From: Rhodospirillales bacterium
GTDB lineage: Bacteria; Pseudomonadota; Alphaproteobacteria; Rhodospirillales; Magnetospirillaceae
Assembly: GCA_015654615.1 (NCBI GenBank)
Contig: JAATGN010000298.1
Location: 1 to 40,787 of the forward strand
Length of the DNA stretch: 40,787 bases
Direction: 5' to 3'
The translations under genes were made by a program, and so were the position numbers. The notes beneath the pieces are model-generated. The model saw nothing but the letters and a program-made list of their open reading frames with translations. It was not told the DNA's origin and ran no database searches. Below are positions 477 to 35,369 of this stretch, piece by piece (the stretch's first letter is position 1; every line of letters begins with the position of its first letter).

Positions 477-2159
477 TTGTTGAAGAATGTCAGAATATCC
501 CGCAAGCTTTCCCTGCAGATCGGCCTGGCCGTCGCGGTCATGCTGAGCCTGGTCGGCTTCGACCTCTATAACCTTCGCCAGACCATGATCGACGAACGCA
601 AGGCCGCGGTCCGGCAACTCGTCGAGACCGCCGTTTCGATCGTCACGCATTATCAAAAGAAGGTCGAGGACGGCTCCCTGAGCGTCGCGGAGGCAAAGGA
701 ACGGGCCGGGACCGACCTGCGGTCCATCCGCTTCGACGACAATAACTACGTCTATGTCTTCAATACCAACGGCGTCACCGAATTCCACGGCGGCCGCAGG
801 GAATTGGAAGGCAGGAACCGCATCGACGAACAGGACGTCAATGGGGTGCGGAGCGTTCGCCTGCAGATCGAAAATGCGAAGCGCGGCGGAGGCTACACGG
901 TCTTCCACGCCCCCAAGAGCGGCGGCGGCGCCGTTTTCCCCAAATTGTCCTACGCCACGCTGTTCGCGCCCTGGGATTGGGTGGTCGGCGCCGGAATCTA
1001 TATCGACGACATCGACCAGGCCTTCCGCGACCGCGTCTTCTCGATGGCTTTCAAGATCGGCGGCGCCATCCTCGTCATGCTGCTCCTCGGCCACCGGATC
1101 AGCCGCGGCATCGCCCGTCCCATCACCACGCTGACCGGCACCATGCGCCGCCTGGCCGAACGGGACCTCGGCGTCGAGGTGGCCGACGTCGACCGCGGCG
1201 ACGAGATCGGCGGGATGGCGAGAACCGTCCAGATCTTCAAGGACAACGCGATTCAACTGGAGGACCTGCGCCAAGAGCAGGAGGCCGTCGCCGCCCGGAT
1301 GGCGGCGGAGCGCCAGCAGGCGTTTCGGCAGATGGCCGACGGTTTCGAGGCCAGCGTCATGGGCGTGGTGAACGTCGTCGCCTCCGCCGCCGACGACATG
1401 CATCGGACGGCCCAATCCATGTCGTCCATGGCCGGACAGGCGACGACCCAGGCGGAAACCGCGGCGACCGCGGCGACGGAGACGACCAGCAACGTCCAGA
1501 CCGTTGCCGCGGCGACGGACGAGCTGTCGTCGTCGATCGCCGAAATCAGCCGCCAGGTCACCGCCGCGGCCCGCATTTCGACCGAGGCTTCGCAGAACAT
1601 CACCCGGACCAACGCCCTGGTCCAAGGATTGGCCGACACGTCCGACCGTATCGGCAGCGTGGTGCAATTGATCAACGGCATCGCCAGCCAGACCAACCTG
1701 CTGGCCCTGAACGCCACCATCGAGGCGGCCAGGGCGGGAGAAGCCGGCAAGGGCTTCGCCGTGGTGGCGGGCGAGGTGAAAAGCCTGGCCAACCAGACCG
1801 GCCGAGCGACCGAGGAAATCACCGGACAGATCGCCGCGGTCCAGGCCGAGACCCGTCAAGCCGTCGACGCCATCCGCACGATCGGCACGGTGATCGCCCA
1901 GATACGCGAAATTTCCGCCGGGATCGCCTCAGCGGTCGAACAGCAGGGGTCCGCGACGCAGGAAATCGCCCGCAATATCCAGCAGGCGGCCGCCGGAACG
2001 CAAGAGGTGTCGCATCATATCGGCAATGTGTCGCAGTTGGCGGCCAGCACCGGTTCCGCCGCCGCCGGCGTCTCGACGGCAACCGGCGCCCTCGTCAGGA
2101 ACTCGGAACTGCTCCGGAGCGAAGTCACCAAATTCCTCGGCTCGGTCCGCGCCGGTTGA
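477..2159 (+). CDS. Methyl-accepting chemotaxis protein (single Cache-type sensor, HAMP, MCP signalling domain)
   Basis: N-terminal TM, Cache-like [32 protein letters not shown], signalling hairpin [44 protein letters not shown] start with AAGGA upstream. Confidence 0.93.
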
Positions 2160-20541: not shown

Positions 20542-20967
20542 TCAATTCAAACCGAGCGCGGCCAGGCCGGCCCGGGCGCACGCGAGGTCCTGCTGTTCAC
20601 TGGCCCCCGAGACGCCGATGCCGCCCACCACCACGCCCTCCACCGCGATGGGCAGACCGCCGCCGATCATCACCAGGCGGGGCACTTGCCGCAGGCCGTC
20701 CCGCAAGTCGCGGTCCCCTTGCAGCAACGCCGCCCATTCGCCGCTGGGAAAGCCGAAGCTGGCGGCGGTATAGGCCTTGTCGGTGGCGATGCCGATGGAA
20801 TGCAGGAAGGCTCCCGGGCAGCGCAGGAAGGCCAGCAGATTGCCCCCGGCGTCGACCACCGCGACATTGACGCGCACGCCCAGGGCTTCCGCCGCCTTCA
20901 CCGCCGCGCCGACGGCGGTGAAGGCGGCTTCGGCCGAAAGGGCCAAAGACGGCTGCGTCAATCGCAT
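20542..20967 (-). CDS. GlcG/HbpS (DUF336) family protein in the meta-cleavage operon
   Basis: VRVNVAVVDAGGNLLAFLRCPGAF, TAASFGFPS, GGGLPIAVEGVVVGGIGVSGASEQQDLACARAG; ATGA overlap with the dioxygenase stop. Confidence 0.85.
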   Translation of the reverse strand: MRLTQPSLALSAEAAFTAVGAAVKAAEALGVRVNVAVVDAGGNLLAFLRCPGAFLHSIGIATDKAYTAASFGFPSGEWAALLQGDRDLRDGLRQVPRLVMIGGGLPIAVEGVVVGGIGVSGASEQQDLACARAGLAALGLN

Positions 20968-21893
20968 CAGGTGACCACTGTGAGGAAGCGGTCGTTCAGC
21001 GCCTTCTGGTAATAGAAAATGCCACGGCCGATTTCGTTCTGGTCCCAGGTCCGGAGCGGGTCGTCCGGGTAATAGGTATAGCCGCCGGCATAGACCTCGT
21101 TGCGATTGCCCGAGGGGTCGAAGAAATAGATGGTCTGGCCGCGGGTGACGCCGTGACGGGTCGGACCGATGTCGATCGGCACGCCGTTGCGGATCATCAG
21201 GTCGGCGGCATGGCCGATGGCGTTCCAATCCTCCAGAAAGAAGGCCAGGTGATGGAACTTGCCCGGCTCGGCATGCTTGACGAAGGCGATGTCGTGCGCC
21301 TTGTTCGAGCAGGAAAGCCAAATGGCCAGCACCCCGTCGGGCAACTCGATCTTCTCGGTGAGCTTGAAATCGAGGACCTCGGTAAAGAAGGCCAGCACCT
21401 GCTCGATGTGCGGGCCGTAGAGCAGGCCGTGATCCATGCGGATCGCCCCCATGCCGTGCGGCGCCTGCCGCCAGATGTAGGGATTGTGGACTTCCGGGTG
21501 CTCCGCGGCCGGTTCGATCGCATGATAGAACTCGATGCGATGCCCCGAAGGAATGGCGACGCCGAGACGCCGCCCAACGCCGGGCTGCTGGCCGGCCGGC
21601 ACATGATCGACGGCCAGGCCGAAGTCCCCGATGCGCTTCTCGAACTCCGTCAATGAGGCGTCGCTGTCGACCTTGAAGGCGAACAGGTCCAATCCGGCAT
21701 GATCGGCTTCGCGCAGCACCACGGAATGCCGGTCGAACTCGTCCCAGGCCTTCAGATAGACCCGGCCGTCTTCCCCCCGCGAGACGACGCTGAGGCCGAC
21801 ATAGTCGACGTAATGTTTGAGAGCCGCTTCCATATCGAGAACCCGCAACTGGACGATGCCAGGACGCAGAACACCTGTAATAGCCATCGACAA
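20967..21893 (-). CDS. dmpB: Catechol 2,3-dioxygenase, copy 1
   Basis: MAITGVLRPGIVQLRVLDMEAALKHY, DHGLLYGPHIEQVLAFFTEVLDF, FHHLAFFLEDWN, GNRNEVYAGGY. Confidence 0.94.
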   Translation of the reverse strand: MSMAITGVLRPGIVQLRVLDMEAALKHYVDYVGLSVVSRGEDGRVYLKAWDEFDRHSVVLREADHAGLDLFAFKVDSDASLTEFEKRIGDFGLAVDHVPAGQQPGVGRRLGVAIPSGHRIEFYHAIEPAAEHPEVHNPYIWRQAPHGMGAIRMDHGLLYGPHIEQVLAFFTEVLDFKLTEKIELPDGVLAIWLSCSNKAHDIAFVKHAEPGKFHHLAFFLEDWNAIGHAADLMIRNGVPIDIGPTRHGVTRGQTIYFFDPSGNRNEVYAGGYTYYPDDPLRTWDQNEIGRGIFYYQKALNDRFLTVVT

Positions 21894-22279: not shown

Positions 22280-23200
22280 TCACGTCACCACCGTGAGGAA
22301 ACGGTCGTTCAGCACTTTCTGGTAATAGAAGATGCCGCGGCCGATCTCCGTATGGTCCCAGCACCGCACGGGTTCGTCGGGATAGAAGTGATAACTGCCG
22401 GCAAACACCTCGTTGCGATTGCCCGAAGGATCGAAGAAATAGATGGTCTGGCCGCGGGTGATGCCGTGACGGGTCGGGCCGATGTCGATCGGCACGTCGT
22501 GGCGGATCATCAGGTCGGCGGCATGGCCGACGGCGTTCCAGTCCTCGAGATAGAAGGCCAGGTGATGGAACTTGCCGGGCTCGGCATGCTTGACGAAGGC
22601 GATGTCGTGCGCCTTGTTCGAACAGCTCATCCAGATGCCCAGCAGACCATCCGGCGTATCGACCTTTTCGGTGAGCTGGAAATCGAGAGCCCCTGTGAAG
22701 AAAGCCAGCACCTGTTCGATGTTCGGACCGTAGAGCAGGCCGTGATCCATGCGGATGGCCCCCATGCCGTGCGGCGCCTGCCGCCAGATATAGGGATTGT
22801 GGATCTCCGGATGTTCCTCGGCCGGTTCGATCGCGTGGTAGAGTTCGATGCGATGACCGGAGGCGATGACGACGCCGAGACGCCGCCCGACGCCGGGCTG
22901 CTGGCCGGCCGGCACATGATCGACGGCCAGGCCGAAATCCTCGATGCGTTTCTCGAAGCGATCGAGCGAGGCCTCGCTGTCGACCTTGAAGGCGAACAGA
23001 TCCATTCCGGCATGGTCGGCTTCGCGCAGCACCACGGAATGCCGGTCGAACTCGTCCCAGGCCTTCAGATAGACCCGGCCGTCCTCCCCCCGCGAGACGA
23101 CGTCGAGGCCGACATGGTCGGCGTAATGTTTGAGCGCGGCCTCCATATCGAGAACCCGCAACTGGACGATGCCAGGGCGCAGAACACCGGTCATGGCCAT
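22280..23200 (-). CDS. Catechol 2,3-dioxygenase, copy 2
   Basis: MAMTGVLRPGIVQLRVLDMEAALKHYADHVGLDVV, collinear with copy 1 over the full length. Confidence 0.94.
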   Translation of the reverse strand: MAMTGVLRPGIVQLRVLDMEAALKHYADHVGLDVVSRGEDGRVYLKAWDEFDRHSVVLREADHAGMDLFAFKVDSEASLDRFEKRIEDFGLAVDHVPAGQQPGVGRRLGVVIASGHRIELYHAIEPAEEHPEIHNPYIWRQAPHGMGAIRMDHGLLYGPNIEQVLAFFTGALDFQLTEKVDTPDGLLGIWMSCSNKAHDIAFVKHAEPGKFHHLAFYLEDWNAVGHAADLMIRHDVPIDIGPTRHGITRGQTIYFFDPSGNRNEVFAGSYHFYPDEPVRCWDHTEIGRGIFYYQKVLNDRFLTVVT

Positions 23201-23520
23201 GAGATGGCTCCCTCTGACTTGTTGGCGGAACGGGGCGGGACCTCCGCGCAGGTAATCGCCAAATCGCTTTGCGGATAGAGACGGCAGGCCAAGGCGACCC
23301 CATCGGCCTGTTCGGCCGCGCTGAGGTGGCTGCGGCTGATCTTGCCCAGACGGAAGCGGCCGGCGACGACACGGACCCGGCAAACGCCGCATCCGCCGCC
23401 CCGGCAGCCGACCGGGACCGCCCCCCGTCCCGTTCGCATCATGGCCGCCAGGACGGACTCGTCGGACCGGCAAAAGCAGGACCCGTCGCCGTCGATATGA
23501 ATGAGAAAGCCCTCCGCCAT
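23191..23520 (-). CDS. dmpQ: Plant-type [2Fe-2S] ferredoxin (DmpQ/XylT-like)
   Basis: PVGCRGGGCGVCRVRVV...ALACRLYP; position between dioxygenase and P5 reductase. Confidence 0.88.
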   Translation of the reverse strand: MAEGFLIHIDGDGSCFCRSDESVLAAMMRTGRGAVPVGCRGGGCGVCRVRVVAGRFRLGKISRSHLSAAEQADGVALACRLYPQSDLAITCAEVPPRSANKSEGAISWP

Positions 23521-25025: not shown

Positions 25026-26543
25026 TCAACCGGCGACGCGGCTCTTCATGGCGACCCACTCTTTCCAGGTCTTCTCATCGGGCGAGCCGGCATAATCCAT
25101 ATTGTCGACCCCCTTTTCGATCCCGTACCAGTCAAGCACCTGATCGAGAGAGGCTCCGCCACAATTTCCCTGGAATATCTGATGGACCGGCAGCCACGCC
25201 TGAATGTATTTCTCGGGTTAGTGATCGAAGATGTTCTTGCAGCCATCCGAGCAGAAGTGATAGCGATCGCCCTTGTACTGCGATTCCCGGAAGGCGATTT
25301 TCGTCGGATCGTCCGGCTCGGTAAAAGCCATGGGAATTTGGCAAACCTGGCACAGTTGCGGCAGGGCGTTGTTGTAGTAACGCTTGCCGTCCTTTTCCAG
25401 CTGCCGCCAATATTCGAAACGCGGGCGATACAGGCGATCCCATTCCGCGCCATAGGATTGGCTGAGCCAATCCAGCTCCTCGTCGGCCGGGATCCAGGTA
25501 TGGAAGGCCGCCGCATGGGTATATTGGTAGAAAATCGCCCAGGCCTCGGTGGACAAACGGTCGACCTCCTTGGCCGGAACGTCGGCAAATTTCGGCAGCC
25601 GGATTCCGTAGCGGGCCAGGTCGGCGAACAGCGCGCCGCCGGCATCGTTGAAATAGATGTTCCAGGCGTCCTTCCACGACATGACGCGCTTGGGCAGCAT
25701 ATAGTCCATCATCATCGCCACCAGGGTCAGCACGCGGTAGCCGCGCCAGAACCATTTGTCGATCCAATGCTGGACGATCGGCACATTGTCCTCATGCTGC
25801 TCGAGCACGAATTTGATGGCCTCCAGACCCAGGGTCATGTGCCGGGCTTCATCGGATTGGGCGGAAAAACCGAAGGTCACGGTGGCCATGTCGCCGTTGA
25901 AGGCGGCGCCGGACATGAAGGGAACGAACAGCAGGTTGGTCAGCACATATTCGAAGGAAAAGCCGATGGCGATCATGAATTCGAACGGCCCGGCGCTGAA
26001 GGCGTCGTCGAAGAAGGATTTGGGCACCGAGAGGTACCAGACGCGATCATGCATATGGCGGAAGGAATGCAGGCCACTGAAATGCTTGTTGTATTGAGCG
26101 ATGGTGTGGACCTGCGTCTGGACGTGGCGCAGTTCGTCCAGCGACTGCATCTGCGCGGCGACCCGCAGGCCGGCATTGGGAAGTTGCCGCCCGATATGGG
26201 CGAAGCCGCGATGGGCCATATATTCGTCGGGTGAAATGCCGGTCAGGAACAGCTTCAAGGCGTTGACGTAACGGCCGTCGGTGATGGCGGTCTGGCCGTT
26301 GTTCTGCTGAAAACTGTCGAGGACGGCGTAGAGTTTCCGCTCCTTCTCCGCCTGATACTTCCAATAGGCGTCCATGGTCAGGCGGAAGGGGTCGTTGAAA
26401 TCGTCCCAATTCCTGATCTTGATGCCTTCGAACGCGGCATCGGGAAAGACCTTTTCCGGCGGCTGGTAGGTGGTTTTCCAATCCAGTTCGCGGGTCAGGA
26501 TGCGGTAACGATCCTTGAGGGGAATCTTCTTGATGGCGTTCAT
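25026..26543 (-). pseudogene. dmpN: Phenol hydroxylase P3 large di-iron oxygenase subunit, interrupted by an in-frame TAA at 25218-25220 (nonsense mutation or sequence error)
   Basis: ORF 25218-26543 carries DELRH and DEARH di-iron ligands; after TAA the same frame continues PEKYIQAWLPVHQIFQGNCGGASLDQVLDWYGIEKGVDNMDYAGSPDEKTWKEWVAMKSRVAG to TGA at 25026. Confidence 0.88.
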
Positions 26544-27855: not shown

Positions 27856-28128
27856 CTAGACGACGTCGCCCGGATCGAGCGTGCCGTGACGCCACTGCGC
27901 CCGTTCCACGTCGATGCTTTCGCCGTCGTCACGGCCGATGATGATGGTGCGGTAACGGCGACAGAATTCTTCAAACAGATCGACCGGCATCACCAGTTCA
28001 ACCGCCAGATCCGGAGAACCGATGGCGAAATCGAATTCGATGAAATTCCGCCGCTTTCCTTTGACGCGGACGAAATATTTCACATCGTCATTCGCTGAAT
28101 TATCTCTTACGAACATTTCCATCGCCAT
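27856..28128 (-). CDS. dmpK: Phenol hydroxylase P0 assembly subunit
   Basis: YFVRVKGKRRNFIEFDFAIGSPDLAVELVMPVDLFEEFCRRYRT; first gene of the operon. Confidence 0.9.
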   Translation of the reverse strand: MAMEMFVRDNSANDDVKYFVRVKGKRRNFIEFDFAIGSPDLAVELVMPVDLFEEFCRRYRTIIIGRDDGESIDVERAQWRHGTLDPGDVV

Positions 28129-28681: not shown

Positions 28682-29986
28682 TTAATTGGCGGACCGCAGA
28701 CCATCGACGGCGAACCGCGAGGCCGGCGACAGCTGGGGGTCGACCTGGCCTTTGAACTGCCCGGTGGTGCAATGCTGGGACTGCATGTCGATCATGGTGA
28801 AGGAATCGTCGATGCCGATCCCGGACCCCTTGTTGACCGGCAGGTGATAATCGGGATGGGATTTTCCGACGGTGAAGGTCTTCCACAGCTTGCCGGTGCG
28901 GTCATAGGTCAGGGTGCGGTTGGAGAACATGGTCTGGGCGTCGAAATACATCACCCGTTTGGAAATCGGATGGTTGGGATCGACCGGCACCACCTCGACC
29001 TCGTAGACCTTGCGCAATTCCCAGGTGATGTCCGGAAAACAGCCCCCCTTGCCGCCGAACGCCACATATTTGTAGTCGGGCTCGGCATGCTCCTCGGCCA
29101 GCTTCATCTCATTGTGATGGTAATAGGGCATGAGGATGAAACGGGTCCCCTTGAAGGTCCATTTCATGTCCGAGATGCGGCCGTTGTAGGCCTCGAGATC
29201 CTCGATCATCAGGTCCGAACCGAGGAAGGCATCGGTGATCTGTCCGGTCGACAGCTTCCGCACGCGGCGCTGAAAGCCGAGATAGAGCCAGGCGGAATCG
29301 AGCTTGGTGTCGTCTTCATAGCGATGGATGAGCAGTTGGGTATCGGCCAGATCCTGGGGTTCCAGCACTTTCACATAGATGGCCCGATACATCTGGGAGG
29401 GATTGGGGTCCAGGTTGGGGATGGGATCGAATTTCGTGCGATGCGTGAAATTGAGGAAATGCATGTTCATCTTGATCACCCGTTCGACACTGCCCGAGGC
29501 CATGTTCCGATAGGTCCAATAGAACGGGTAAATGGCCGCCGAATCACCCCAGTTGATGCCATATTTGAAATTCCAGGCGATCTTCTCGCCGGCCCGCGGG
29601 TCGCTGATCGACGGTTCCTCGGGAAACGGCCGGCCGGCGACGAAACCGGAGATTTCCCCCAACTTTTCGCCCAGCTTGACATCGGCGTGGTTTTTCCGCG
29701 TCGCCTCGACATAGGAGGGCAGCAGATCGAAGGATTCGGTGGCTCCCACCTTTATTTCGTACCAGCCGTTCTTGATCCATTCATAGGCGGCGCCATCCAG
29801 CACGTCCTTGGCCTGCTCGACGTTGGCGGCATTGATCGTCACGCCCGGCTTGACGAAGGGATGGGCGGGCAGCCCGGCCTTGTAGGGATAGAAGCTGTCG
29901 TCGACGACATCCGCGGCAGGGGCCGCCGAAGCGAAACCGGTGACGGCGACCGCCACGGCAAGGGCAGCGATGATGTGGATCTTCAT
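28682..29986 (-). CDS. DUF1329 family periplasmic protein
   Basis: Signal peptide MKIHIIAALAVAVAVTGFASAAPAA; YGINWGDSAAIYPFYWTYRNM, YDRTGKLWKTF consistent with DUF1329. Confidence 0.82.
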   Translation of the reverse strand: MKIHIIAALAVAVAVTGFASAAPAADVVDDSFYPYKAGLPAHPFVKPGVTINAANVEQAKDVLDGAAYEWIKNGWYEIKVGATESFDLLPSYVEATRKNHADVKLGEKLGEISGFVAGRPFPEEPSISDPRAGEKIAWNFKYGINWGDSAAIYPFYWTYRNMASGSVERVIKMNMHFLNFTHRTKFDPIPNLDPNPSQMYRAIYVKVLEPQDLADTQLLIHRYEDDTKLDSAWLYLGFQRRVRKLSTGQITDAFLGSDLMIEDLEAYNGRISDMKWTFKGTRFILMPYYHHNEMKLAEEHAEPDYKYVAFGGKGGCFPDITWELRKVYEVEVVPVDPNHPISKRVMYFDAQTMFSNRTLTYDRTGKLWKTFTVGKSHPDYHLPVNKGSGIGIDDSFTMIDMQSQHCTTGQFKGQVDPQLSPASRFAVDGLRSAN

Positions 29987-30029
29987 TCTGGTCGTCTCCA
30001 TCATTCTTGGTTGTGCGCCCCGCTTCCGG

Positions 30030-31961
30030 TCAGAAGCGGAACGTGGCGTTGGCGAAAACTTCGGTTTCGTGATGCGCCATGCCGATGACGCCGTCCTTGA
30101 AGCGGCCCAAAGGCTCGAAGCCCCAATCGCCGCCCAGATTGGTGCCGGTCACGGGAAACCCGGAGGCGTTGTTGCTGGCGCCGGTGTAGGGATTCTGGCT
30201 GTGGGCGTCGTCGAACGAGGTCCGGTAGTCGCCGAACTTGACGTTGGCCCCCAGACGGAACCGCCAACGGCTGGATGGCGTCCATTCCACCGACGGCTCG
30301 ATGACATTGGCCCGCGCCTTGAAATCACGGGCGAAGACCGTCTGCGGACTGATGGTATCGCTGACGTACCAGCCCTTGATCAGCAGGGTGCCGATCCAGC
30401 TGTCCTGGAAATCGGGCATGCCCACCGTGCCGTACCCGGTGTTGCGGAGCTCGTAGTCGTTGATGTGCTGCCCGAACAGCTGGGCGCTGAACAGAAAAGC
30501 GCGGTTGGGGTTCAGGAACCGAATGAAGGTGTTGCGGTCGGCCCCGATGACATAGCGGATGACGTCGGATTTCTTGTAAAGCTGCGGCTGGGCCGTATCG
30601 GCGAACTCTTCGCCCTGGGTGTAGACGGTCTCCATGCGGATCGCCGTGTCGATCGGCTCGATGTTGAAGTCGAGCGAGCCGCCGTAAAGCGTGATCTGCG
30701 GAAAATTGATGTCGAAGGCGATCATATAGGGATAGGAGACATTGTTGGCCCCCAGCAGCGGGCCGAAGGTATTGACCGACGGAATGGCCCCACGCAGGGA
30801 CGGCATCTGCGAGCGGAAGCGCAGGGCATTGACCGAGAAGCCGACCCCTTTCAGCTCGCCTTCCACCTTGCCGCCGAAGGTCGTATTGGACAGCGTGTAG
30901 TTCGGCGTATTGGCCTGGCGGATGCCGATCTGATGCGGGCCGAAGTCGGTGGCGACGGCGCCATTGGCGAAATTGGCCACCGTGCAGCCGTTGTCCCAGC
31001 AATTCTTCAGCCCGCGGAACAGCTGGGCGGCGCCCAGCGGATTGTTGGTCGAGCCGGCCTGGCCCAGATTGTTGGGCCGCCACGGTTCCAGCACCCAGAC
31101 GCCCTGAACGTTGAGGTCATCGAACGGTCCGCGCGCCCCCATGCGATAGTCGGCCCGCAGCATTCCCATGGGAATGCGGATGTCCTGCAGATCGTCATAG
31201 ATATTGTTGCGCGAATAATCGACCGGATTGACCACGTCGAGCACCCGGAACAGGTCGGTCCGTCCCCACACCAGCTGCTGGCGGCCGACACGCAGGGCCA
31301 GCGTATTGTTGCCGATGGGAATGTCGCCGTCGACATAGGCCTCGCGCAGGAAATCCAGCCGATCGTTGAACTCCGGCGCGGCAAGCTCCTGCGCGTTGTA
31401 ATCCATGTAACCCTTGATGCAGCCGCGATGGTCGACGTCGCAGGGCCGCACCGGCGTGGCGAAGGCGACCCCCTTGTCCTGGCCGGCCCAGGCATCGACC
31501 AGCACCAGGCCCTGGTTGGGGTTGTTGGCGGTGTTGAAGCCGGCGTTGTTGCCGGGGGGAAGGGCCGCATTGGGAACGCCGGAGGTATTGTTGGCGCTGC
31601 CCAACCCCTGGCCGAACGGCACCACGGCGCCGTTGTTGTTGGTGAAGGACACCGAGCCGCCGGCCGTATTGCCGAAATGCCGGGCATTGAGATCGTAGGC
31701 GGCGTCGTAGGAGGCCCGCAGCGTCGTATGCAGGCGCAGCGACGAGAAGGTATCGGTGTGATCGACCAGATCCTTGTCGATATCGCTCTGGGCCGAGATC
31801 CGCCCCTTCGACAAGCCGGGGCCGTCGCGGAAGCGGATCTCCTCGTCGACCTTGTTCTTGATCCGCAGGTCGTCATCCTCGGCCACGGCCGACGGAGCCC
31901 AAGAAAACCATCCGACCACGCCGACGGCGCCCAGGACGGCGAGTTTCTTACGCAGAGTCAT
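30030..31961 (-). CDS. DUF1302 family outer-membrane (porin-like) protein
   Basis: Signal-like N-terminus MTLRKKLAVLGAVGVVGWFSW; LRVGRQQLVWGRTDLFRVLDVVNPVDYS; C-terminal ANATFRF. Confidence 0.83.
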   Translation of the reverse strand: MTLRKKLAVLGAVGVVGWFSWAPSAVAEDDDLRIKNKVDEEIRFRDGPGLSKGRISAQSDIDKDLVDHTDTFSSLRLHTTLRASYDAAYDLNARHFGNTAGGSVSFTNNNGAVVPFGQGLGSANNTSGVPNAALPPGNNAGFNTANNPNQGLVLVDAWAGQDKGVAFATPVRPCDVDHRGCIKGYMDYNAQELAAPEFNDRLDFLREAYVDGDIPIGNNTLALRVGRQQLVWGRTDLFRVLDVVNPVDYSRNNIYDDLQDIRIPMGMLRADYRMGARGPFDDLNVQGVWVLEPWRPNNLGQAGSTNNPLGAAQLFRGLKNCWDNGCTVANFANGAVATDFGPHQIGIRQANTPNYTLSNTTFGGKVEGELKGVGFSVNALRFRSQMPSLRGAIPSVNTFGPLLGANNVSYPYMIAFDINFPQITLYGGSLDFNIEPIDTAIRMETVYTQGEEFADTAQPQLYKKSDVIRYVIGADRNTFIRFLNPNRAFLFSAQLFGQHINDYELRNTGYGTVGMPDFQDSWIGTLLIKGWYVSDTISPQTVFARDFKARANVIEPSVEWTPSSRWRFRLGANVKFGDYRTSFDDAHSQNPYTGASNNASGFPVTGTNLGGDWGFEPLGRFKDGVIGMAHHETEVFANATFRF

Positions 31962-31995
31962 CGGTCCCCCCCTTTTATATGTTTCTTGGAGTCGT

Positions 31996-34359
31996 TCAGG
32001 CCGCCGCCACCTCTGGCGCGACGGCTGGCGCGACCTCGCGAACGATGAAGCGAGGCCGGAAGGTGGCAATCCACGCCGGGACGAAGAGCAAGGCGGAGAT
32101 GGCGCACAGAGCGATCATGAAGATCAGGAGTTTGGCGGCATCGGCCTGGAAGCGCAGATCCGAGACGAACACCCAGGCGACGATGCCGCCCACCAGCGTC
32201 GTGAAGGTGCAGGTGACGGCGAGGCCGGTGGTGGCGACCGCCTTGCTCACCGCCTGCTGGACGTCGGAATGCTCATGCAGTTCGTCGCGGATGCGATCGA
32301 TGATATAGATGGCGTAATCGATGCCGATGCCCAATCCGACGGAAATCAGCGGCACCGTGTTGATGTTCAGCCCGAGACCGAAGAGCGCCAGATAGGCGTA
32401 GGTCAGCGCCGTCGGCCCGGCCATGGCGGCGAACATCAGGGCGCCGGCCTGCAAAGCCCGGTAGGTGACGCCGACGATCCCGCAAATCAGCACGAAGACC
32501 AGTGGAATGACGCGCAGATTGTCATGGAACACTTCGTGATTGACCGCCGCGGTAATCCCCAGAAGACCGCCGGCCAATGCGATGGTGACGCCCTTGTCGG
32601 CCTTCGCCACCTCCCGGGCCCCGTCTTCGGCCAGGGCGATGGCCCGATCGACGGTCGGCCCCTGGTGGTCCTTGTAGAAGAAGGTCAGATCGGCCTTGTT
32701 GTAATCCGGCGTGATGAAATCGTTGAGGATGCCGGGGATCGGACTCGACGCCATATAGGCGAACAGGACGCCTCCCACCAACCGGGGTTCCTGCGGAATC
32801 TGCTCCCAGCGCTGATCGCCGTTGTGAATCAGCTTGTTGACCTGGCGCAGCAGATTGGGCACCGCTTTCACGCCCCCCAGGGCGGGATCCTGCATCATGT
32901 GATTCTGGAAGTGCTCGATCTCCGCCAGGGCCTGCGGATCCTTGAGTCCGCCCGACTTTTCGGCCCGGGCCACCAGCATCAATTGTTCGGAGCCGGGAAA
33001 CAGCTTGTTCACCGCGCTCGACGAGACGTTGTAGTCATGGTCGCGATAGAGCAGGGGCGACCCCGGTTCCGACTCGCCGATGGTGATGTCGCGGGTGACG
33101 ACGAGCACGAAGACCAGGGCGATACCGGACATCGCGGTCAAAGCCAGGGCGCTCCGCCGGTCGGCCACCAGATGGCCGAGGCGCCCGAGAACGGCCTTGA
33201 GGCCGCCGTGGCGGACCACCGGATTCTTGGGCGTCGGCAGGATGCTGAGCAGCAAGGGCACGGTGATCAGCACATTGAGAATGCCGGAGATCGCCCACAG
33301 GAAGGTGAAGACGCCGAGCTCGACGTTGAGCGGGATCGACCCGGTGCACAACAGCAGAAGCCCGATGGCGTCGCAGGTGATGCCGAGCGATCCGGGGTGG
33401 ATCATTTCCTTCAAGGTGGCGTGCGCCGCCCGGTGACCGTCCTTGAAACGGCCGAGTTCCTGGTACCAGCGCTCGACGATCTGGATGCCATGCGACATCG
33501 AGCGCGCCGCGATCAGAAAAGGGATCACCAGCATCAGCGGGTCGAGGTGGTAGCCCAGCAGAACGATGAATCCCAGTCCCCAGATCGACGAGATGCTGAT
33601 GCCCACCAAGGGCAGCAGCACGCCGTAGAAGCGTCGAAAATAGACGACGAGAAGCAGCACGATGATGACGGCGGTATAGGCGAAGACCTGGATGCTTTGC
33701 GGCAGGTAATGGTAGACCCAACCGATCAGGGCCGGCTGTCCGGTGGCGTAGATCTTCACCCCGGGCCGGACCTCCTGCCGACGCAGCTTTTCGAGGCCGT
33801 TGAAAATGCCCAGATAGTCGAGTTCGCCGTCGACCAGCTGCGCCTTGATCAGGGCCGCCCGTTGGTCGGCCGAGACGAGAAGCCCGAAGACCCGGGGGTC
33901 CGTCAGGACTTTCTCCCGCATGACGGCCAGTTCGTCGCCCACCGGCGGCTTGGCGGGATTGTAATAGACCTCGGAGCGGACATTGCCGTCCTCGGTCAGC
34001 GAGATGTGGCGCGTCGTCCGGTGCGTCAGGCTGGAAACCTGGTTGTGATTGACCCCCGGCAGATTGTCGACATCGCCGGTGACGCGATCGATCAACGCCA
34101 GGTTTTCCGGCGAAAAGATCGTGCCGTCCTCGACCTCGATGGCCACGGACAGGACGTTGGCGCCGCCGAACAGACCGCGGATTTCGTTGTGCAGCTTGAT
34201 GAAGGGGTGCTGTTGCGGCAGCAATCCTTCGAAATCGGTATAGATCCGCAAACCCGGGATCGTGACGGCGAAAAGGGCGGTGATCAGAAAGACGACCGCC
34301 AGGACCGCCAGGCGAAATCTGAAAAGCTGGTCCGGCAAGGCATCGAGAAGCTTGCTCAT
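31996..34359 (-). CDS. RND/MMPL superfamily permease
   Basis: 788 codons, two TM bundles; GIGIDYAIYIIDRIRDEL and IRGLFGGANVLSVAIEVEDGTIFSPENLALIDRVT. Confidence 0.87.
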   Translation of the reverse strand: MSKLLDALPDQLFRFRLAVLAVVFLITALFAVTIPGLRIYTDFEGLLPQQHPFIKLHNEIRGLFGGANVLSVAIEVEDGTIFSPENLALIDRVTGDVDNLPGVNHNQVSSLTHRTTRHISLTEDGNVRSEVYYNPAKPPVGDELAVMREKVLTDPRVFGLLVSADQRAALIKAQLVDGELDYLGIFNGLEKLRRQEVRPGVKIYATGQPALIGWVYHYLPQSIQVFAYTAVIIVLLLVVYFRRFYGVLLPLVGISISSIWGLGFIVLLGYHLDPLMLVIPFLIAARSMSHGIQIVERWYQELGRFKDGHRAAHATLKEMIHPGSLGITCDAIGLLLLCTGSIPLNVELGVFTFLWAISGILNVLITVPLLLSILPTPKNPVVRHGGLKAVLGRLGHLVADRRSALALTAMSGIALVFVLVVTRDITIGESEPGSPLLYRDHDYNVSSSAVNKLFPGSEQLMLVARAEKSGGLKDPQALAEIEHFQNHMMQDPALGGVKAVPNLLRQVNKLIHNGDQRWEQIPQEPRLVGGVLFAYMASSPIPGILNDFITPDYNKADLTFFYKDHQGPTVDRAIALAEDGAREVAKADKGVTIALAGGLLGITAAVNHEVFHDNLRVIPLVFVLICGIVGVTYRALQAGALMFAAMAGPTALTYAYLALFGLGLNINTVPLISVGLGIGIDYAIYIIDRIRDELHEHSDVQQAVSKAVATTGLAVTCTFTTLVGGIVAWVFVSDLRFQADAAKLLIFMIALCAISALLFVPAWIATFRPRFIVREVAPAVAPEVAAA

Positions 34360-34373
34360 GGAAATCTGCCCCT

Positions 34374-35369
34374 TCAATTGGCGGCTGGGGTCTCGGCAAG
34401 AGGGAGCGCCGCGAGGGTGGCGGTACCGGCGATCAGAACGGCGTTCCGGGTCAGGGCCAAGCCCCGCAAGTCGGCCTTCGGCACATCGCCCGGCAACGCT
34501 TCCCAGACTCCGGCCGCCAGACGGAACGCCGCACCCCCGGCCCCGACGGCGATCACTTGGCCGTCGGGCCGCATCAGAACGCCGTAGAAAGGAGCCGGAC
34601 TGGGCGATTGCAGCGTTCGCCAGCTGTGGCCGCCGTCCCTGGTTTCCTGCACCACCCCCGCCAATCCGCCGACCACTCCCCGGTCGGCGTCGAGAAAGTG
34701 CATGGCATAGGGATAGAAGGTCTCGCCCAGGGACCCGGCCTGGTCCCACGAGGCGCCGCCATCCCGGCTGATCAGGGTCCGGCCGAACTCGCCGGTGACG
34801 ACGCCGAAGGACGGCGTGGAAAATTGGATATTCAACAGCTGAATATCCTCGTCGAGGGATTGGTCCCGCCAATTCCGGCCGGAATCGGCGCTGGACAGCA
34901 GCGCCCCGCGGGCCCCGACCACCCAAATCCGGTTATCGGGCGTACAGGTGATGCCGAGCAGGGAATCGGCGGCCGGAATCTTGGCCGACTGCCATTTTTC
35001 CGCGTCCTTGTCGCTTCTCCACAGGGTGCCGGCGAAATCGAGGGCGGCGAACCCTCCGTCGCCGCACACCGCGATGCCGATCAGGGCCGGCGCCGTCGAC
35101 AGCTCATGACGGACCCAGGTCTTTCCCTGATCGCTCGACACCGCGACGACGCCATAAGCGCCGACGGCGACGAAACGCCGGTCGTTGCCGGCGACGGCCT
35201 GAAAGCGGTCGGATCGTCTTATCGGGTTGGCCGGCCCCGACGCGGCGGTGCCGGCGGCCTCGTCATTCTTCCGGCAAGCGCCGGTGCCGGCGCCGAGCGT
35301 CACGGCGCAACACAGGGCGACGACGAGGCGACGCCAGCCGTTCCTGTTGCGGATCCAAGTCTCCCACAT
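34374..35369 (-). CDS. YCF48/BNR-repeat-like beta-propeller protein with a lipoprotein-like N-terminus
   Basis: GAGTGACRKNDE after hydrophobic segment; repeated SSDQGKTWVRHEL, SSADSGRNWRDQSL, SRDGGASWDQAG, TRDGGHSWRTLQ. Confidence 0.8.
   Translation of the reverse strand: MWETWIRNRNGWRRLVVALCCAVTLGAGTGACRKNDEAAGTAASGPANPIRRSDRFQAVAGNDRRFVAVGAYGVVAVSSDQGKTWVRHELSTAPALIGIAVCGDGGFAALDFAGTLWRSDKDAEKWQSAKIPAADSLLGITCTPDNRIWVVGARGALLSSADSGRNWRDQSLDEDIQLLNIQFSTPSFGVVTGEFGRTLISRDGGASWDQAGSLGETFYPYAMHFLDADRGVVGGLAGVVQETRDGGHSWRTLQSPSPAPFYGVLMRPDGQVIAVGAGGAAFRLAAGVWEALPGDVPKADLRGLALTRNAVLIAGTATLAALPLAETPAAN

Follow-up and report, generated by a model that had tools for sequence, protein, structure and literature searches.

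The gene for the large (alpha) subunit of a phenol hydroxylase, dmpN, carries an in-frame stop codon in a bacterial draft genome, and the question is whether the cell harbours a broken allele, produces a working protein in spite of the stop, or has an intact gene which was misread in the assembly. The window, i.e. the whole stretch of 40,787 nucleotides which was analysed, is one whole contig of a draft of 466 contigs (completeness 95%, contamination 7.3%) that has the appearance of a metagenome bin. On its minus strand dmpN occupies positions 25026..26543 and comprises 505 codons before the final TGA, with the interruption at codon 442. The open reading frame begins with the ATG at 26543 and runs for 441 codons up to a TAA at 25218..25220 (TTA in the letters of the plus strand), after which codons 443-505 (25029..25217) are open as far as the TGA at 25026-25028; the frame contains no third stop. 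The preliminary description of the locus had thus placed the stop, and counted the 63 codons that follow it, correctly.

The interrupted gene is recognisable over its entire length. When the TAA is written as X, the translation aligns end to end with the alpha subunit of the multicomponent phenol hydroxylase PHN of Pseudomonas sp. OX1 (PDB 2inn and 3u52, with 2inp a further structure of the system; query residues 4-498, E about 1e-237), which it resembles in the full-length match, the domains and the operon partners, and from which it differs by the premature TAA. The Phenol_Hydrox domain (Pfam PF02332) covers residues 22-249 with 236 bits against a cut-off of 24.4. As it holds the di-iron site, the earlier statement that the iron ligands lie upstream of the stop is confirmed; the YHS region has its four cysteines upstream of it as well. 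The YHS match itself (PF04945, residues 408-450) contains codon 442, and the TAA prevents the YHS domain and the conserved C-terminal tail from lying in one open frame. No second dmpN was found in the draft assembly.

The surrounding operon, all on the minus strand, is in good order. It starts with a small dmpK-like open reading frame (27856..28128), named by its position and taken from the ORF list, where it has no internal stop, and continues with dmpL (beta subunit, PF02332, 26821..27834) and the regulatory protein gene dmpM (PF02406, 26559..26828), both ending in TAA. Downstream of dmpN follow the intact dmpO (PF04663, 24608..24970) and the intact reductase gene dmpP (PF00111, PF00970 and PF00175, 23523..24608). 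The four genes which define the context of dmpN, dmpL, dmpM, dmpO and dmpP, are all open, no frameshift was seen in the dmp operon, and the cluster, which includes meta-cleavage genes further downstream, is kept in a genome of the same genus (G004).

Comparison with relatives bears most directly on whether the stop could be compatible with function. In the same-genus dmpN, 87% identical, codon 442 is GAG and the tail is complete; the copies within the family likewise have a sense codon at this position. On a broader scale, 80 DmpN relatives were collected from GTDB genomes; as the query stopped at residue 441, the comparison of their tails is unbiased. All 80 have Glu at position 442 (GAG in 69, GAA in 11), followed by 59 to 101 further residues, and none of the other DmpN-like matches of the class-wide search contains an internal stop. 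The derivation proposed earlier, in which a single substitution turned GAA into TAA, is possible, but the codon of the same-genus gene and of 69 of the 80 relatives is GAG, and the route may have passed from GAG through either GAA or TAG to TAA.

A functional, tolerated truncation of DmpN would fit the position of the Phenol_Hydrox domain and of the four cysteines, all upstream of the stop. However, the tail is kept in every one of the 80 relatives, residues 443-470 are conserved to the same degree as residues 396-441 (mean conservation 0.79 vs 0.78), the stop cuts through the YHS match and the tail of the window gene still bears signs of selection, all of which makes this explanation very improbable. 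Readthrough of the stop, either programmed or through an ochre suppressor tRNA, would restore the full protein and agrees with a downstream frame that is intact and under purifying selection. Against it, the stop is present at codon 442 neither in the same-genus gene nor in any of the 80 relatives, where a programmed site would be expected to be conserved; TAA is moreover the terminator of dmpM, dmpL and dmpC and of 44 of the 249 long gene-like ORFs sampled, and a comparable stop in another gene of the draft, ettA, is a TAG, outside the reach of ochre-only readthrough. Readthrough is accordingly rated as still less plausible than truncation. The sequences thus reveal no conserved short form of the protein, nor do they show codon 442 to be a conserved site of readthrough. 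It is just as hard to credit that a truncated DmpN, or a mixture of short and full forms tuned by readthrough, works in this organism with altered enzyme activity or partners.

The tail also provides an indication of the age of the stop. Relative to the same-genus gene, 58 of its 63 residues are identical and there are no indels; pN is 0.050 and pS 0.62 (dN 0.052, dS 1.33), in comparison to pN 0.069 and pS 0.52 before codon 379 and pN 0.086 and pS 0.58 for codons 379-441. Purifying selection has therefore acted on the tail as much as on the other parts of the gene, with no relaxation, which bears out the earlier description of the tail as DmpN-like and free of frameshift or decay. Even if all 7.5 nonsynonymous changes of the tail are placed after the stop, the age of the stop would not exceed roughly one tenth of the time elapsed since divergence from the same-genus genome. 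A tail with neither relaxed selection nor indels means that the stop is either very recent or not in the organism at all.

The second of these options, an error of sequencing or assembly in the consensus of the draft, possibly due to low coverage or mixed strains and leaving the real dmpN intact, was weighed against the background rate of internal stops, estimated from five large domain families across the genome and from 643 kb of contigs. In the five families, about 360 domain copies comprising roughly 55,000 codons, there is one internal stop: a clean in-frame TAG in a full-length ettA, the gene of the energy-dependent translational throttle protein, with both sides intact (L170, contig C174, positions 1877-1879, plus strand). 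A first scan for clean stops based on codon usage was swamped by antisense frames and was dropped in favour of an in-frame dicodon scan of the window and 60 further contigs (643 kb), run together with the contig of ettA. Most of its hits were gene boundaries; it also yielded one further clean stop in the middle of a gene, a TAA within a dehydratase of the enolase superfamily close to a contig edge (L032, contig C3, position 397, minus strand). This dehydratase is similar to talarate/galactarate dehydratases, its score for an exact family being below the cut-off. The scan narrowly missed dmpN on one threshold, and the count of clean stops is for this reason a lower bound. Conserved genes of this draft thus carry clean single stops at a low level, at least two besides the one in dmpN, and such stops are not peculiar to dmpN; a few to some tens may be expected genome-wide, an estimate of wide uncertainty drawn from one or two events.

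The stops in ettA and in the dehydratase, the fragmentation and contamination of the draft and the absence of decay in the dmpN tail all speak for a consensus error. On the other hand, the dmp operon has no visible frameshifts, a single internal stop in about 360 domain copies indicates a draft which is not grossly error-ridden, and real recent pseudogenes occur in some number in bacterial genomes. With at least two other clean stops in conserved genes, including ettA, the error is a close rival, a serious possibility to which we assign somewhat less than even chances.

Slightly favoured, at little better than even chances, is a null allele of dmpN that arose by a recent nonsense substitution in the strain or population, the consensus error being almost as likely. 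The presence of the stop in living cells is what we infer; the stop itself, the intact tail, the occurrence of a single dmpN in the draft and an invariant Glu442 are seen directly. With such an allele the ribosome would halt at codon 442 and the product would be 64 residues short, having lost the end of the YHS domain as well as the conserved tail. The loss of this end, together with a block as conserved as the region preceding it, suggests an alpha subunit that is probably unfolded or inactive; the cell would then be without this phenol hydroxylase, and the other genes of the operon would still be intact because the change is young. Of the four options originally put forward for the stop, a recent null mutation and a sequencing error are the ones supported, whereas a tolerated truncation and readthrough are argued against by the Glu442 and tail shared by all 80 relatives, by the ordinary use of TAA as a terminator and by the other clean stops.

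An AlphaFold2 model of the read-through protein was poor (mean pLDDT 48, from 12 aligned sequences) and is not used as structural evidence. Neither nonsense alleles of dmpN nor the tail of PHN turned up in literature searches, and passages of a paper on T4MO (PMC4200526) held nothing useful about the alpha-subunit C-terminus. The dmpN stop is an ordinary finding either way, null allele or error, involving no new mechanism: no difference was found between it and the recent nonsense pseudogenes seen in draft genomes of bacteria, with which it shares one clean stop in an otherwise intact conserved gene and two more in the same draft. It matters mainly for annotation, as a call of this genome as a phenol degrader depends on a gene which is either broken or misassembled, and it calls for caution in that the clean single stops of this draft extend beyond dmpN.

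Two further features of the locus were recorded. Two catechol 2,3-dioxygenase genes lie in tandem on the minus strand (20967-21893 and 22280-23230), 88% identical at the DNA level, compared with apparently one copy in the same-genus cluster. Genes for DUF1329 and DUF1302 proteins and an RND-type transporter adjoin the phenol operon, also on the minus strand (28682-34900).
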